Shown in pieces: positions 27,340-35,089 of a DNA stretch of 64,000 nucleotides (positions are counted from its first letter, which is position 1; every line of letters starts with the position of its first letter). This DNA is from Natrialba magadii ATCC 43099 (GTDB taxonomy: Archaea > Halobacteriota > Halobacteria > Halobacteriales > Natrialbaceae), in contig NC_013922.1 of the NCBI RefSeq assembly GCF_000025625.1, forward strand, positions 3,410,001 to 3,474,000, in the 5' to 3' direction. The notes below the pieces were generated by a model that was given only the letters and a program-made list of their open reading frames with translations, was not told the DNA's origin and searched no databases. The position numbers and the translations under genes are program-made.

Positions 27340-27579
27340 ATGGGAACGAAGAACATTACAATCACGACGGAAGCGTACCAGAATCTCAAAGCGCACAAAC
27401 GGGATGACGAGAGCTTTACGGACACGATCCTGCGCCTCACCGAGGCAGACAAGGACGTCATGAAGGGGTTCGGCATGCTCGCCGAGGACGACGGCTTCCC
27501 AGATTCGAGCGAGCGTACTCGAGTCAATCTCGATGAGGCGTTCGACGAGCGAGGGGAGCGACGGGACCGGAGCCTCTGA
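27340..27579 (+). CDS. vapB: VapB-type antitoxin
   Basis: The 79-aa protein starts MGTKNITITTEAYQNLKAHK, then SFTDTILRL, which is the archaeal VAPB_antitox (PF02697-type) DNA-binding segment. The C-terminal half is acidic and probably wraps the toxin. It precedes a PIN-domain toxin by one base, the usual antitoxin-first order. It is expected to neutralise VapC and, alone or with VapC, to bind the palindrome at its own start. Confidence 0.88.
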   Translation: MGTKNITITTEAYQNLKAHKRDDESFTDTILRLTEADKDVMKGFGMLAEDDGFPDSSERTRVNLDEAFDERGERRDRSL

Positions 27580-27580
27580 G

Positions 27581-27961
27581 ATGATCGCACTGGATGCGTC
27601 GTTCGTGATCGACTATCTGAACGGCGTCGAGGCAACACGGTCGTTTCTGGAGCAGCGAGACGAACTGGTCTACTACGTGCCGACGCTGGCGCTGTTCGAA
27701 GTCGCCCGGGAAGCGGCCTGGGCCGAGAGCCGATCAGTCGCGGACGTACTGGCGGGGATCGACTGGACAGAGCCGCTGGCGTTCGACGCGGGTGCGAGTC
27801 GAGAAGCGGTGCAGATTCACGCGGAACTGCTCGAAAACGGGACGCCGATCAACGCGGCCGATGTGATGATCGCCGGCATCTGTCGACATCACGGTGCGTC
27901 GCTGGTCACGCGCGACGGCGACTTTACGGACGTTTCCGGTCTGGAACTGGTCGGCTACTGA
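27581..27961 (+). CDS. vapC: VapC-type PIN-domain toxin
   Basis: The 126-aa PIN-domain protein shows the acidic metal-binding set in order: MIALDASFVIDYL (Asp5), LALFEVARE, PINAADVMIAG and SLVTRDGDFTDV. Family members cleave RNA, often tRNA or rRNA, when not bound by VapB. The ATG follows the vapB stop by one base (TGAgATG). A longer frame to 27533 would overlap vapB and is not used. Confidence 0.9.
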   Translation: MIALDASFVIDYLNGVEATRSFLEQRDELVYYVPTLALFEVAREAAWAESRSVADVLAGIDWTEPLAFDAGASREAVQIHAELLENGTPINAADVMIAGICRHHGASLVTRDGDFTDVSGLELVGY

Positions 27962-28107: not shown

Positions 28108-29361
28108 TTATGCGTCTTCGTACAGCGGATTCGCCGCACAGAGCTCGTCGACTTCCGCACGAACCGACTCGAGTACGTCCTCGTCGTCCGGGTCGTCGAT
28201 CACGCGGGCGATGAGGTCGGCGACCGTTCGGCAGTCGTCTTCGTCGAAGCCGCGGGTCGTCAGCGCCGGCGTGCCGGCGCGGATACCCGACGGATCGAAC
28301 GCCGAGCGGGTCTCGCCGGGCACCGTGTTGCCGTTGAGGACGATGCCGGCGTCCTCGAGTGCCTCCTCGGCGTCGCCGCCGGAGGTGTCGGGGTGGCTCT
28401 CGCGCAGGTCGACGAGCACGAGGTGGTTGTCGGTGCCCTCGGAGACGAGCGAGAAGCCGTGTTCTGCGAGCTGGTCGCCGAGCGCCTTCGCGTTGGCGAC
28501 GGTTTGTTCGGCGTAGTCTTCGAATTCGGGTTCCAGTGCTTCTTTGAAGCCGACGGCCTTGCCGGCGACGTTGTGCATGAGCGGGCCGCCCTGGCCGCCG
28601 GGGAAGACGGCGGAGTCGACATCGTCAGCGTACTCTTCCTTGCACATGACGATGCCGCCGCGGCCGGAACGGATCGTCTTGTGGGTCGAGCCGGTGACGA
28701 AGTCGGCGGTGCCGACCGGTGAGGAGTGAACGCCGGCGGCGACGAGCCCGGTGATGTGGGCGATGTCTGCGAGGTGGAGTGCGTCGACGTCGTCGGCGAC
28801 GTCCTGAATGCGCTCCCACTCGATCTCGCGTGGGTAGGCGGAGTAGCCCGAGACGATGATGTCCGGTTCGAACTCGGCGGCCTGTGCTTCGAGTCCGTCG
28901 TAGTCGATGTAGCCCGTCTCAGCGTCGACCTCGTACTGTTCGACGTCGTAGAACTGGCCGACGAAGTTCGCCGGGTGGCCGTGGCTCAGGTGGCCGCCGT
29001 GGGTCAGATCCAGCGAGAGGATCTTATCGCCCGGTTCGAGCATCGCGAAGTAGACGGCCTGGTTGGCCTGTGTACCCGAGTGAGGCTGGACGTTAACGTG
29101 GTCGGCACCGAACAGTTCCGTGGCGCGCTCGATGGCGAGTTCCTCGACCTCGTCGGCGTACTCACAGCCGCCGTAGTAACGCGAGCCGGGGTAGCCCTCG
29201 GCGTACTTGTTCGTCAGCGCGCTCCCCTGGGCGTCGATGACGGCCTCGCTGACGTGGTTCTCGCTCGCGATCATCTGCAGGGACGATCGCTGGCGGTCTA
29301 CCTCTCCCTCGAGTGCGTCGGCGACGGCGGGATCGACCTCCCGTACGTGCTCGTGGTCCAT
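28108..29361 (-). CDS. glyA: Serine hydroxymethyltransferase
   Basis: Interconverts serine and glycine with a C1 carrier. The 417-aa PLP enzyme begins MDHEHVREVDPAVADALEGE and shows MIASENHVSEAV, TNKYAEGYPGSRYYGGCEY and NVQPHSGTQANQAVY. The lysine PLP-site motif appears as VTGSTHKTIRSGRGG. The frame runs open to 29565 through an 11-bp repeat array; those residues (DHYTTT repeats) are not protein-like, so the ATG at 29361 is used. The enzyme feeds the one-carbon and methylation pools. Confidence 0.97.
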   Translation of the reverse strand: MDHEHVREVDPAVADALEGEVDRQRSSLQMIASENHVSEAVIDAQGSALTNKYAEGYPGSRYYGGCEYADEVEELAIERATELFGADHVNVQPHSGTQANQAVYFAMLEPGDKILSLDLTHGGHLSHGHPANFVGQFYDVEQYEVDAETGYIDYDGLEAQAAEFEPDIIVSGYSAYPREIEWERIQDVADDVDALHLADIAHITGLVAAGVHSSPVGTADFVTGSTHKTIRSGRGGIVMCKEEYADDVDSAVFPGGQGGPLMHNVAGKAVGFKEALEPEFEDYAEQTVANAKALGDQLAEHGFSLVSEGTDNHLVLVDLRESHPDTSGGDAEEALEDAGIVLNGNTVPGETRSAFDPSGIRAGTPALTTRGFDEDDCRTVADLIARVIDDPDDEDVLESVRAEVDELCAANPLYEDA

Positions 29362-29716
29362 GTGCGAAGTGGTGTTTGGCTGCTGTATAAGTGTACCTCT
29401 CTTCGGCAAGCCGAGCCACGAACACAAGCGATTGCAGTGGTCGTGCAGTGGCCGTGTAGTGGTCGTACAGTGGCCGTGTAGTGGCCGTGTAGTGGTCGTG
29501 CAGTGGTCGTGTAGTGGTCGTGCAGTGGTCGTGTAGTGGTCGTGCAGTGGTCGTGTAGTGGTCAAAGTGGTCGTGCAGTGGTCAAAGTGGCAAGAGTTGT
29601 CAGTCTAACTGATAGGTTCTCGCGTCCGGTGGCAGTCAACTGCCAGCTGTCGTGTTCCCTGCAAGCGATTACCATCCGATACAACTAACTACCTCGCGTT
29701 TGATCTGTCGTATTGA
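29362..29716. promoter_or_regulatory. Divergent region between glyA and CHAT gene, with 11-bp array
   Basis: Contains the 11-bp minisatellite (29440-29589) nearest glyA. A less repetitive part next to the CHAT gene must hold its promoter. Confidence 0.5.
29440..29589. repeat. 11-bp tandem repeat, 11 consecutive copies plus shorter variants
   Basis: Units of the type GTCGTGTAGTG or GTCGTGCAGTG run from 29440 to 29560. After that, two 9-bp GTCAAAGTG variants alternate with one more full unit. Each unit is about one helical turn long. The array lies upstream of glyA and is not coding. Confidence 0.93.
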
Positions 29717-32017
29717 ATGCTCGTGTGGGATGAGCGACAGGATGGTGTTCGCGTTACCGACACTGACAGCGCCACGCTGGCGATTACTGGTACAGGATTT
29801 GCCATTCGTGACTGCGATCCTGACCTTCCGCGCCCGGTCGACGAAACCCTCTCGGTACAGGCAAGCGAGCTCCGCTTTCCACACGCCGTCGTCTACGCCT
29901 TCCCGATGGATTCGTCGTCACCGATCGAACTCGACCCTTGCGGCGATCTGCTCACGCTGCCGCCCGGCGAGTACGTCGTGGACATCGACACCGAAATCAA
30001 GAGCTACCTCCAGTTTCACAGTTCGGCCCGTATCGAACGGACCGACGACTTCGAATCCGTGGTGGTTTCGTTTCCCGAACGGACTACCGTCGACCTCGGT
30101 TTTCGCAGCCACCACGAGTTCCCCGCCGATACTATCACCGTCCCTGACTCCCCTTCGGCGCTTGCGACCGCCATCTCGCATCTGGCCTCCTCGCACAAGA
30201 CGACGAGCGCTGACCGATCCTATCCGACCCTCCGGGGCCATCCGCCACTTCTCGAGTCCGGCGATGAACTCCACGTCCCTGACTGCATCCGAGCCGACAC
30301 ACCCGAAACCGGAATCGAACTCGTCGTCCCGCCCTGCTACGAGTCGATCTATCTCGTCGCGCCACTCGCGTACTACCTGCAGGCCCGGCTTCGGACCGAC
30401 GCGTCGCTCTGTCCCGACCCAGCGGCCGGTGTCGTGCTCCACCTCTCCGACCTCGACATCGACCACCACCTCGCCGGCTCGCCCGCACTCGAGTCCGACG
30501 TCACAGAACTCCTCCGGCAGACGTTCTTCCTCGACTGCCTGGTTCGCAACGCCGGCCCCTACGGGACGGCGTTAGCGGAGGAAGCAGCCCTCGACGAGGA
30601 GCAGGTCGATATCGAGCCGGCACAGCTCTACGAGGCAACACCCCAGGAGCGGCTGGCGGCCTCCCTCGATATTCCGTTCGACGCCATCGAGTCCCACCTG
30701 CCGGAGTGGCATCTCGCGACGTACGTTGCGCCCGAGTACGAGCACGTCGAGACGCTCCCGTTCCTGCTGGATCGGCTCAGTCTGCTCTACCGGCCGGAAA
30801 CCTCACGCCTCGACGGCCAGGAACTGGTCGACCGGTCGCTCACCGCCTGCTACCGCGGCGGCGCTCGGTCCGGTCCCAGCGGGGATGTCGCGTCCGTCGA
30901 CATCGTCAAACCCGAACTGCGACACGGGCGAGTCCACGGCTGGCTCGCAGACGGCGTCCCGATCGACGTCTTCAACGCTGCCCCCGAGGCGTACGCGAAC
31001 CGACTCGAGTTCCTCGAGCGGGCGAGCGAGGAGACGTCGGTCTGTGTCGTCCTGAATGATCCAGAGATGGCCGGCGAACACAACGACGTTTCGGAAATCT
31101 ATCGCGCGCGGTCGGGTGAGTTACCGATGAGCGTCACGATCACTGAAGGGGCTACGACGGACGAACTTGCGCGAATCTTCGAGGACGGGGCGGATTTCGT
31201 CCACTACATTGGCCACTGTGATGAGGCTGGTCTGCGTTGTCCAGACGGCCACCTGTCGATGACGAGTCTCGACCGCTGTGAGACGCAAACGTTCTTTCTC
31301 AACGCCTGTGGGTCGTTCTACGAGGGACGGACACTGATCGAGAAGGGAAGCGTCGCGGGAGCCGTCACCGTCAGGACAGTGCTGAACGAACACGCCGTCA
31401 AGGTCGGGTCGACCTTCGCAAAGCTGCTGGTCCACGGGTTCAGTATCGAACGAGCACTGGCGCTCGCTCGACGGCGGATCATCATGGGCAAGGACTACAC
31501 TGTCGTCGGCGACGGCACTCACTCGCTCACACAGGGTGAACACCGCCTCCCGACGACGGTTCGCGTCGACGAACTCGATGCAGCAACTGGGGAGACAGTA
31601 TCAGAGCTGCGAGCGGAGACGAACGTTACCGACACTGACACTAACACTAACACTGACACTGACACCGGCACCGGCACCGGCACTGACACCAGCACTGCCG
31701 ATACCGATACCCGTACCGGTACCGGTACCGTACTTGAGTACCCACGCGATACCACTCCTCCCCAAACTAATGCTGATGCCGAAACTGGTGACGAGCGGTA
31801 TCTGGTCACGATCGACTGCTACTCGCCGCGCCTTACGGGGTCGTACTACTTTCCCCATACTGCAGACAACGAGGTAGCGTACCTCTGTGGGTCGGAGTCG
31901 ACGTTCGTGCTCTCGGCGTCGGAACTCGTGACGTTGCTCAAAGAAACGTCAGCGTCGGTGATCTACGATGGCGACATCGAGTGGTCGCACGCGATCTGGC
32001 CGACGTTCGAACCGTGA
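29717..32017 (+). CDS. CHAT-domain (caspase-like) protein
   Basis: The 766-aa protein has a long N-terminal region of unknown fold (about 1-430), a CHAT/caspase-like domain (about 430-620), and a C-terminal tail beyond a repeat-coded Thr/Asp/Asn/Gly linker (about 635-675). The caspase-like dyad is visible: His in FVHYIGHCDEAG (residue 500) and Cys in FFLNACGSFYEG (residue 531). A helix IEKGSVAGAVTVRTVL follows, as in CHAT proteins. CHAT proteins are proteases, some acting as triggered effectors in bacterial defence. No gasdermin, TPR or sensor partner is recognised beside it, so its substrate and trigger are unknown. The divergent glyA and the downstream tbsP-like gene appear unrelated. Confidence 0.85.
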   Translation: MLVWDERQDGVRVTDTDSATLAITGTGFAIRDCDPDLPRPVDETLSVQASELRFPHAVVYAFPMDSSSPIELDPCGDLLTLPPGEYVVDIDTEIKSYLQFHSSARIERTDDFESVVVSFPERTTVDLGFRSHHEFPADTITVPDSPSALATAISHLASSHKTTSADRSYPTLRGHPPLLESGDELHVPDCIRADTPETGIELVVPPCYESIYLVAPLAYYLQARLRTDASLCPDPAAGVVLHLSDLDIDHHLAGSPALESDVTELLRQTFFLDCLVRNAGPYGTALAEEAALDEEQVDIEPAQLYEATPQERLAASLDIPFDAIESHLPEWHLATYVAPEYEHVETLPFLLDRLSLLYRPETSRLDGQELVDRSLTACYRGGARSGPSGDVASVDIVKPELRHGRVHGWLADGVPIDVFNAAPEAYANRLEFLERASEETSVCVVLNDPEMAGEHNDVSEIYRARSGELPMSVTITEGATTDELARIFEDGADFVHYIGHCDEAGLRCPDGHLSMTSLDRCETQTFFLNACGSFYEGRTLIEKGSVAGAVTVRTVLNEHAVKVGSTFAKLLVHGFSIERALALARRRIIMGKDYTVVGDGTHSLTQGEHRLPTTVRVDELDAATGETVSELRAETNVTDTDTNTNTDTDTGTGTGTDTSTADTDTRTGTGTVLEYPRDTTPPQTNADAETGDERYLVTIDCYSPRLTGSYYFPHTADNEVAYLCGSESTFVLSASELVTLLKETSASVIYDGDIEWSHAIWPTFEP
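31628..31735. repeat. Repeat-coded linker in CHAT gene
   Basis: Imperfect hexamers (ACTGAC, ACTAAC, GGCACC, GGTACC types) in frame encode a Thr/Asp/Asn/Gly linker after the CHAT domain. Confidence 0.85.
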
Positions 32018-32603: not shown

Positions 32604-33422
32604 ATGGCTTCGAATTTACTCAACCACCAGATTGACGATATACTGGAATCGATTCTCGAAGATGCAAGCGGTAACGTGTACATGGTCAACCCGTCACGGG
32701 ATGCTATCGAGGAGTTCATTTCCGTCGCCACAGCGTTCGACGACTCGCTCCCGTCGGTCCACATGCTCGCCGACGAACGCACCCTGAAAGCGGTCATGGA
32801 CGACTTCATCGTCGCCTCGAACGCAGCGGACCTCATCAGCGAGGGCGCACTCGCACTTCACACCCTCGATGAGGCACCTGAGAACTCGCTGCTCGTCACG
32901 GACGAGCGCGTCATCGCCGTCGTTCACGCCGGCGACCGCGTCGGCGGCCTCGTCACCGACGACGACAGTTTCGTCGAGGACACCTACGATACCTACGCGG
33001 CCCGCTGGGAGGACGCCTCCGCGTTCAACCTCCGGACACCGCCGATTACGGACGTTCGCGAGACGCTCGCCGACGAGATCAGTCCCGACGCCGAGGAGGA
33101 CTTTACGGCGATCCTCAACTCGCTCGAGACCGCTCGCGGCGACGGCGACGGCCTCGACGAAGTCACGATTTCGCTGCTCGTCGCGGCGAAGAACGAGGCC
33201 CTGCTGTACGATATCAGCAAGTGGGGAGAGGACGTGGGCATCGCCAGCAAGGCGACGTTCAGCCGCACGAAGACCAAACTCGAGGACATGGGCCTGATCG
33301 ACACCGAGAAGGTTCCGATCGATGTCGGCCGCCCACGACTTCGGCTGAAGATCGGTGACGACCGCCTGCGCGAGGCCGACAACGGCCAGCTCGCGACAGT
33401 TGCACAGTCGATTCTGAACTAA
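32604..33422 (+). CDS. TbsP-type transcriptional regulator (DUF5821 family)
   Basis: The 272-aa protein starts MASNLLNHQIDDILESILED and continues MVNPSRDAIEEFI, LADERTLKAVMDDFIVAS and NSLLVTDERVIAVVHAGDRV. Its C-terminal winged helix carries VTISLLVAAKNEALLYDIS and KATFSRTKTKLEDMGLIDTE. This matches the haloarchaeal DUF5821/TbsP family; TbsP in Haloferax works with TrmB on central-carbon genes. The family assignment is from memory of its pattern. The ATG at 32604 follows an AT-rich promoter region; the longer frame to 32535 adds non-conserved residues. Confidence 0.8.
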   Translation: MASNLLNHQIDDILESILEDASGNVYMVNPSRDAIEEFISVATAFDDSLPSVHMLADERTLKAVMDDFIVASNAADLISEGALALHTLDEAPENSLLVTDERVIAVVHAGDRVGGLVTDDDSFVEDTYDTYAARWEDASAFNLRTPPITDVRETLADEISPDAEEDFTAILNSLETARGDGDGLDEVTISLLVAAKNEALLYDISKWGEDVGIASKATFSRTKTKLEDMGLIDTEKVPIDVGRPRLRLKIGDDRLREADNGQLATVAQSILN

Positions 33423-33588
33423 CCCCTTTTGCCCCCTTTCGAGCGGTTGTGCGTTGGTGAACAGGTGTCGACTTTGTGCACCACTGTGTCGTACTCATAG
33501 CGACACTGATCGCTCAGCAGTCGAAACCGTCGGACGCCACGCCGGAAGAAACCAGAATCAACTTGAAACAGCCAATACGAGTGACACT

Positions 33589-35089
33589 ATGTCTGGCGTG
33601 GTCTCCCGACGAACGCTCCTCCAGTCGATCGGTATTGGGGCAGCGGTGCCAGCGATCGAGACAGTGACAGGGTCGAAAACGAGTCAGTTGTCGTTTCGTG
33701 ACCAGTCGCCGCCAGTAACGTGGTCACAGACCTACGACCCGGGCGGACTGGCAACCGACTCGAGCGTGAACGATCACATCGTTGTCTCCGATCTCCAGCC
33801 GAGCAGCCACGGCGTGCTAGCGGTCGGATACGGTTACACTGCAGACGCGGGCCACGGCTGGATCACGAGTATCGACGGCTCCGGCCACCGCCAGTGGGAA
33901 CACGTGTTCGACGGAAACGTGGAGTTTCGCGCTATCGAGTCGGCCCAGTCCGACGGCGATAGTGATCGGTCCGAACCACACGATGCGATCGTCTGCGGTG
34001 CAACGAACTCGACAGTGCGGCCCGAGGCGGGTGCCAGAAATTTCGATCCGTACTGTGCCCGTCTCGATGATGAAGGAGAACTCACGGTGGGGTCTCACGT
34101 ATCAAACGGACCACTCATACGGTGGAACATACGGTAACAGTAACAGTAACAGTAACAGCAGCAGTAACAGTGGTGGTACTCTCGGGGGAAGCGGCCGACT
34201 ATTCGACATGGCGGCTGTCGGCAACCGCTACGTCGCCGTCGGAATCGAGAGCGAGAACCGGCGGCTGCCCTCTGCGATCTCGATCGCCGATAGCGGAGAT
34301 CTCGAGTGGCGCTGGCAGCACCCTGCCGACGAACGAGGCACGACCTGGGCGGTCACAGCTCTCGGCGCCGACGTCGTACTCGTCGGTTCCTTGAGAGTGG
34401 ACAATCAAGACGGTGAGACACCGTGGATCGCCAGAGTCGATGCGAACGGCGAGACGGTCTGGGAAACGTTCCTCTGGGATGAGGCTGACGACGCCAGACT
34501 CACCACCGTCACCCGCGGTCCCGACGAAACCGTCTTCGTCGCCGGAACCAGTGAGGGAGGCGAGATCGGATCGTTCGCGGTCGACGACCACGACGGTGAC
34601 GTACAGTGGCGTCGCACCACCGACGAGACTGTGTCGGAACTCGAGGACGTGGAGGCACTCGGCGACGGCTACGCTCTCGTCGGCTCCCGCGAAACCGACG
34701 ACGGAACGGCAGCCTGGGTAGGCGTGCTGGCTCAGGACGGAGAGACAGTCTGGACGACGACTCTCACCGAGGAGCGCCGCACTACCGGGACCTCCATCTG
34801 TGAAACCGCCGACGGAGGCCTCCTCGTCGGCGGTGAGACGAGAAACGACGCTTCACGTGCGTGGCTCGCCAAACTCGGTGGCGATGCGGAGGTCGAAGAC
34901 AGGTGGGAGATGCCATCCCCATCGTTGCCGGGTTGGGTCACACCGTTTGTCGCTGGTATCGGAATCGGTGGCGGAGTCGCCGGCGTACTTGCACGTCGCC
35001 GGTCTGGAGCAACAGCGAGTGCGACCGCTGGAGCGAGCGACCAGACCGACGACCCGTCGAATGACGCAAACCCCAAGTCCTCGCCGTGA
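33589..35089 (+). pseudogene. Frameshifted Tat-exported beta-propeller protein
   Basis: The gene starts at 33589 with MSGVVSRRTLLQSIGIGAA (twin-Arg Tat signal). It continues in one frame to about 34085, where repeat signatures such as ARLDDEGEL break off into an unrelated tail ending at 34137. The neighbouring frame then resumes the pattern, reading RWGLTYQTDHSYGG, and keeps PQQ-propeller-like blades (ARVDANGETVWETFLW, GVLAQDGETVWTTTL) to a C-terminal membrane helix (WVTPFVAGIGIGGGVAGVLA) and stop at 35089. One extra base within 34081-34087 explains the shift. Restored, it would be an exported, C-terminally anchored propeller of about 500 aa. It could be a real mutation, a sequencing error or a recoding site. 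Confidence 0.8.
34132..34175. repeat. AACAGT-type array after the frameshift
   Basis: Near-perfect AACAGT hexamers encode Asn-Ser in the downstream frame of the propeller gene, about 50 bp after the inferred frameshift. Confidence 0.85.

Follow-up and report, generated by a model that had tools for sequence, protein, structure and literature searches.

What does a CHAT-type, caspase-like protein do in a haloarchaeon when it is lodged between glyA and the gene of the transcriptional regulator TbsP? The window analysed here, a stretch of 64,000 nucleotides from Natrialba magadii ATCC 43099, carries such a protein as an ORF of 766 aa that starts with ATG, as read from the ORF list and its translation. 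The original prediction had described a solitary CHAT protein, merely flanked by glyA and a tbsP-type gene, with trigger and substrate left open. The genes that frame the question are the following:

28108..29361, reverse strand: glyA, divergent conserved neighbour (ORF list, locus comparison)
29717..32017, forward strand: CHAT/caspase-fold protein of ortholog group A, 766 aa (ortholog alignment, model, structure comparison)
32604..33422, forward strand: tbsP, transcriptional regulator and candidate substrate (PF19138 and PF23336; NF047393)

An alternative glyA start at 29565, which would make the protein 68 aa longer, reads through repeats and is doubtful; positions 29433–29583, in the intergenic region between the divergent glyA and CHAT genes, hold about 14 tandem copies of the 11-bp unit TGCAGTGGTCG, and this array also lengthens the apparent glyA ORF. 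Beyond glyA lies a PIN-domain (VapC-like) protein (27533–27961). Downstream of tbsP (33454–35089), overlapping ORFs of 227 and 375 aa occupy different frames, neither with a Pfam hit; their junction is near a repeat-coded Asn/Ser stretch, and they are possibly one frameshifted gene.

Searches of Pfam, NCBIfam, PADLOC and PDB sequences with the single CHAT protein found nothing above cut-off, and a CHAT profile run against PDB sequences gave one match at chance level. The CHAT model PF12770 left the window protein and the rest of its genome unmatched; with E ≤ 0.1 as the limit it recognized 11 of 56 orthologs, the best of them at 3.8e-4. The metacaspase/caspase model PF00656 (C14) had no match in the window protein or its genome. 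The full-length AlphaFold2 model, built from 56 sequences (pLDDT 77, pTM 0.80), was confident for residues 1–360 and less confident in the catalytic part, where 10-residue blocks ranged from pLDDT 46 to 84 over residues 431–610 and the block containing C531 reached 47. Foldseek with this model gave a best E of 3.2e-5, and VIA-align gave the matches detailed below; the three together yield a caspase fold, as the original prediction had claimed, and the missing fold that it had named as an argument against protease function did not materialize. The protein is hence predicted to adopt the caspase/CHAT fold over residues ~331–607 and is divided as follows:

29717..30145, forward strand: residues 1–143, predicted beta-sandwich (at best Z 8.8 to galactose-mutarotase-like folds, a weak match)
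30152..30706, forward strand: residues 146–330, predicted alpha/beta region (model; a region that the fold search barely probed)
30707..31537, forward strand: residues 331–607, caspase-like (CHAT) module (VIA-align structure matches)
31058..31060, forward strand: D448, candidate S1 acid for a P1 Arg (invariant in group A, directly after strand 440–446)
31214..31216, forward strand: predicted catalytic H500 in YIGHC (ortholog alignment)
31307..31309, forward strand: predicted catalytic C531 in NACG (ortholog alignment)
31625..31771, forward strand: Thr/Asp-rich repeat-coded linker, residues 637–685, not conserved (TRF arrays within 31628–31730)
31784..32014, forward strand: residues 690–766, conserved C-terminal tail of group A (ortholog alignment)

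A separate N-terminal region had been proposed for the first ~430 residues; such a region does exist, but its boundary is nearer residue 330, as the caspase-like matches start at ~331. Modelled alone, residues 1–380 gave a pLDDT of 90 and no Foldseek hit at 1e-3. Residues 1–135 show a weak likeness to galactose-mutarotase-type sandwiches, the Z of 8.8 being scarcely beyond what common arrangements reach, and residues 1–143 are a candidate regulatory or interaction domain judging from the model. The sensor folds that had been suggested for this part (TPR, STAND, NACHT) were found neither in the Pfam hits nor among the listed fold matches of residues 1–380, within which 146–330 was barely probed. 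The repeat-coded linker ahead of a conserved tail was recovered as it had been described.

The closest structural relative was SAVED-CHAT of type III CRISPR (8tl0; Z 14.5 over 171 residues, CHAT residues 432–607), which shares the caspase fold and the His-Cys dyad, whereas the N-terminus of the window protein is a predicted beta-sandwich, no SAVED domain is among the matches listed, and the locus is one of glyA and tbsP. Csx29, the TPR-CHAT of Craspase (Z 11.6), is a CHAT protease acting on a transcription-control protein, since Csx30, which it cuts, inhibits a sigma factor (PMC10028731); it differs in its TPR part, a match not listed for the window protein, and in cutting Csx30 between residues 427 and 429 (PMC10028731), against a predicted P1 Arg here. 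Separases matched with Z ~12–13 (separases, gingipain R and Csx29 together cover Z 11.6–13.3), several rows spanning residues 331–606, and share the proposed ExxR-type site; in contrast, separase was absent from the Pfam hits up to E 1 and from the PDB sequence searches, so that the likeness is at the fold level only, there is no cohesin or securin context, and the 766 aa include no large helical arm. Gingipain R (Z 11.8–12.6) resembles the window protein also in an acid after beta1 and through a weak Pfam C25 match, which at E 0.023 is below that family's cut-off. The transmembrane anti-sigma factor DdvA (8rw5, 8rot) matched with Z 12.4–12.8 over model residues 338–598, from which it has a caspase-like part; by its entry title alone it too is a transcription-signalling protein.

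The His and Cys positions given in the original prediction (500 and 531) were confirmed, and each residue is kept in 80 of 80 orthologs (30 of 30 in a first set); the Cys motif reads NACG in 78, NGCG in one and NACC in one. In the model H500 follows strand 494–498 and C531 follows strand 525–529, which is the order of clan CD. Together with D448, both residues are invariant in the 56-row alignment of group A, the ortholog group defined by a match of >640 bits. D448 sits between strand 440–446 and helix 449–466, as the second residue of N447-D448; its position is Asp in 56 of 56 group-A rows and Asp or Glu in 58 of 62 paralogs, and the surrounding pattern N-[DE]-x-x-M-x-x-E is broken in proteins that have lost the dyad. 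In gingipain R and MALT-1 the P1 Arg is held by an Asp in helix alpha1, and in gingipain R this Asp lies at nearly the position that Arg64 occupies in caspase-3 (PMC4626109). By this analogy, in which D448 is equated with gingipain R Asp163 by its place in the secondary structure and not by residue-level superposition, D448 is a candidate S1 acid that would bind a P1 Arg. The CHAT protein is likely to act as a protease.

The CHAT family is real, conserved and chromosomal in haloarchaea. Matches were found in 54 of 61 genomes searched, most genomes of the window's family having one close copy alongside copies of ~35% identity. Across the order, 119 of 136 genomes have a family member, 87 of them with a match above 640 bits (counted by eye), and one further genome has a group-A fragment at a contig end; in a phylum sample of 294 genomes 50 matched, four of them outside the order and all in one family. 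The protein is not solitary even in its own genome, which has at least two further members (C1:951356-953485 and C1:3333849-3335831), and it has conserved neighbours in glyA and tbsP. The four genomes outside the order (L197–L200) hold distant members, one lacking the dyad, in a common neighbourhood of dihydroorotase-like and acetyltransferase-like genes (judged by eye).

Bacterial CHAT proteases also act in gasdermin systems. Together with their role in CRISPR systems (PMC10028731), and the occurrence of paralogs in 25 plasmid records, this could point to a triggered death or defence effector, the analogy drawn in the original prediction. We consider such a role very unlikely: PADLOC anti-phage models gave 0 families for the window protein, 50,697 phage records yielded no match, and among viral contigs 50 pattern matches included no confirmed relative, the contig scan using group-A patterns that could miss distant paralogs. 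Against an effector, too, the gene occupies a fixed site among housekeeping genes across many haloarchaeal families, and its paralogs are tied to sensors and regulators.

That fixed site was compared in 80 ortholog loci, with neighbours counted by our own crude gene caller. A glyA-cluster gene lies within two genes upstream in 75 of the 80, and in 72 it is the immediate upstream neighbour in divergent orientation; the gene that follows CHAT is a co-directional tbsP in 73, so that the proposed comparison of haloarchaeal neighbourhoods did produce a conserved partner candidate where the original prediction had seen none beside the gene. Order-wide, tbsP lies within ~1 kb of group A in 83 of 87 genomes (coordinates compared by eye), and neighbours beyond glyA and tbsP vary between families. 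The gap between CHAT and tbsP, using our own gene starts, is 155–844 nt, hence co-transcription is not evident. Where group A is missing from the genome, glyA and tbsP stand side by side without CHAT at 10 loci of one set and 11 of a second. The CHAT gene therefore has a fixed site but is separable from its neighbours, and the adjacency of group-A CHAT and TbsP is partly due to a stable neighbourhood, since glyA and tbsP stay together without it; for the same reason adjacency as proof of partnership was rejected.

Two exceptions to the common arrangement were observed. In four genomes of one family (f7) the CHAT gene remains with glyA and the best TbsP is elsewhere. In five genomes of one genus (g34) the gene immediately upstream of TbsP is a clade-B CHAT, and the retrieved stretch contains no glyA; this counts as one independent linkage event, supportive and not decisive, given that the chance of the order showing an event of this kind at all is roughly estimated at a few to 15 percent. 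TbsP-family genes are also expanded in genus g34, where a genome can have as many as 12.

Evidence of another kind came from TbsP itself, in which one segment follows the presence of CHAT:

33120..33155, forward strand: TbsP linker SLETARGDGDGL ahead of the helix-turn-helix (predicted cut after Arg, codon 33135–33137)

Identities were measured to a Natrialba reference or to the window sequence itself. In a first set, comparing TbsPs of 40 genomes with and 12 without CHAT and excluding the window's family, identity in this segment fell from 0.91 to 0.44, the largest drop among 278 12-aa windows of TbsP; in an extended set (62 versus 26) it again ranked first, falling from 0.90 to 0.53 while TbsP as a whole went from 0.61 to 0.49. 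The Arg-Gly pair at the centre of the linker is kept in 104 of 105 TbsPs with the protease versus 10 of 29 without it. By class, it is present in 95 of 96 TbsPs adjacent to group A, four of four where group A is present and TbsP detached, five of five adjacent to group B, and 10 of 29 with no group A and no adjacent CHAT; the single miss (L103) is an A-linked TbsP that ends at a contig edge. Among TbsPs next to glyA without CHAT, 6 of 21 have the pair. The TbsP set omits five rows, namely L217 and L231 (two copies of genome G041) and L232–L234 (second copies); of the genomes without group A, 11 with a TbsP match were left out (mostly incomplete, and one may hold a group-A fragment) and four have no TbsP match.

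Newly added genomes alone gave 22 of 22 versus 6 of 14 (p = 1e-4). As the genome sets may overlap, sequence-level p-values are not independent, and the value to quote is that by genus, tallied by reading tables: 20 of 20 versus 7 of 16 (p = 0.0001), or 9 of 16 (p = 0.0014) when Lys-Gly, found in g37 and g39, is counted. The genera that retain Arg-Gly without group A are g17, g2 and g27, which are all three CHAT-less genera of the window's family, and g34, g60, g149 and g50. As g34 TbsPs retain the linker whether or not a CHAT adjoins them, group B adds linkage and no linker evidence. GlyA served as a control: its identity was 0.780 in 33 loci with CHAT and 0.775 in 18 without, so that the lineages lacking CHAT are not simply more distant.

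These patterns have to be weighed against an active regulatory CHAT protease with another substrate, in which case the proximity of TbsP would be inherited synteny and the linker change would mark a different TbsP role in lineages that lose CHAT. The persistence of glyA–tbsP adjacency without CHAT is in keeping with it, as are the lower conservation of TbsP as a whole where CHAT is missing, the linker retained in seven CHAT-less genera, and the other partners (DUF7504, kinases) that paralogs adjoin. It is nevertheless an unlikely explanation, though one to be taken seriously, since the linker is the single most affected part of TbsP while GlyA is unchanged, and a clade-B CHAT reached the side of TbsP independently.

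The content of the linker bears on how CHAT might act on it. The minimal separase consensus is ExxR (PMC6858450), and the site has also been given as D/ExxR, with SIEVGR in yeast (PMC4626109); the TbsP linker sequence SLETAR fits this pattern. In shuffled TbsP, [DE]xxR arises by chance in 9% of 12-aa windows and [ST]x[DE]xxR in 1%. In the Natrialba genome the DNA pattern for ETARGDG, with arginine restricted to CGN codons, has a single occurrence, which is inside tbsP. Among the 96 A-linked TbsPs, P4 is Gln in 10 and Ser in one. A search of TbsP against PDB sequences gave one match, at chance level.

A partnership could also operate without proteolysis of TbsP, with the linker as a docking or allosteric site or with TbsP controlling transcription of CHAT. 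The shared locus and the covariation would be accounted for equally under such a scheme, and members without the dyad occur in operon-like pairs with kinases, which indicates that the fold can serve without catalysis. We regard it as rather improbable, because none of the 56 group-A rows departs from the His, the Cys or the acid that follows beta1, and a Gly/Asp-rich linker with a separase-like site has the expected look of a cut site.

The predicted preference for Arg at P1 also bears on the caspase-like activity reported from Haloferax volcanii, which favours Asp substrates (PMC3615174). CHAT is a haloarchaeal caspase fold, and the accessible part of that source assigns no gene to the activity (PMC3615174); the reported substrates, however, have P1 Asp (LEVD, VEID, IETD), while the acidic S1 candidate predicts Arg, and CHAT as the origin of this activity, which we deem highly improbable, was set aside for that reason. 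The analysis identified no family member in H. volcanii; PF12770 has no match there, a result that is uninformative as the same model misses the window genome. A 2012 survey reported metacaspases in 5 of 114 archaeal genomes, and its main text contains neither CHAT nor Halobacteri- as words (PMC3501461). In open-licence PMC papers we found no recognizable earlier account of the present family among work on CHAT proteins, caspases or separases of haloarchaea or archaea at large.

The paralogs place this locus within a wider set of pairings. Among 62 paralog ORFs, 51 have both dyad residues, 10 lack both and one is cut off; dyad loss, which the original prediction took as speaking against protease function, thus occurs among distant homologues and in none of the 80 orthologs. 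Nine of the 10 losses form two clades, dead1 (five rows) and dead2 (four rows), each with starred support, and the tenth row belongs to the family outside the order. The trees had 80 and 76 rows. They omit one truncated paralog ORF (the second at L159) and some of the orthologs, and the second tree is also without dead2 and the four rows that lie outside the order. The Natrialba copy at 3.33 Mb on C1 is a dead1 member without His and Cys. All three dead1 loci, with five proteins, directly adjoin a GAF/PAS-HisKA-HATPase kinase encoded on the same strand; the genes overlap or almost overlap at two loci and are 91 nt apart at the third (crude gene caller). In the window's own genome (L146:5790-10060, C1 at ~3.33 Mb), the dyad-less paralog overlaps the histidine kinase gene by a few bases; two more genomes have this pairing, and in one of them three dead copies stand in tandem.

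The active paralog of the same genome sits after an AAA/Cdc6-type gene and genes taken by eye for glpABC. DUF7504 (PF24336) immediately precedes a CHAT paralog in the same orientation in 15 pairs from 13 genomes, against ~0.1 expected on rough assumptions, as counted from tables covering 28 genomes with 198 DUF7504 matches; the rate is somewhat inflated because the 28 include all 12 that already showed such a neighbour, and the remaining 16 gave two pairs. Such genes precede clade-B paralogs in several genera (e.g. L151:6833-7546). The TbsP and DUF7504 profiles gave no alignment, hence kinship of the two partner types is not shown. At four loci the neighbour is a HalX response-regulator cluster (Pfam checked on one).

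We tentatively favour, somewhat short of calling it probable, the reading that CHAT is an Arg-specific regulatory cysteine endopeptidase that cuts TbsP; adjacency and apparent co-evolution suggest that it switches TbsP by cutting the conserved Arg linker. From catalysis and Arg specificity to TbsP cleavage, its trigger and its consequence, we infer the following sequence of events. The N-terminal beta-sandwich and alpha/beta region would sense a signal and thereby activate the caspase-like module on their C-terminal side, which would then cleave after a P1 Arg. Its main substrate would be the neighbouring TbsP, cut once in the linker between SLETAR and GDGDGL, and the cut would part the N-terminal portion of TbsP from the helix-turn-helix portion. 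Splitting TbsP would alter the expression of its targets, which according to the literature include gapII and concern glucose metabolism in H. volcanii, where second-site tbsP mutations suppress the lethality of a trmB deletion and TbsP and TrmB co-regulate gapII (PMC11834397, PMC13286277). As TbsP has genetics in H. volcanii, CHAT and the TbsP site would be quick to test.

The broader proposal, which we hold more guardedly still, is that haloarchaea may own a separase-like, Arg-specific CHAT protein making one cut in the central-carbon regulator TbsP, within a diversified signalling family in which TbsP or DUF7504 is the partner of active members and a sensor histidine kinase that of dead ones. 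The family is in any case newly tied to TbsP. If the proposal is true, a native archaeal caspase-fold protease would have a specific substrate and cut-site prediction, for which we found no precedent in the open-licence PMC literature; an archaeal transcription regulator would be seen to be switched by site-specific proteolysis, and an Arg-specific, separase-type cleavage logic would operate in ordinary archaeal signalling.
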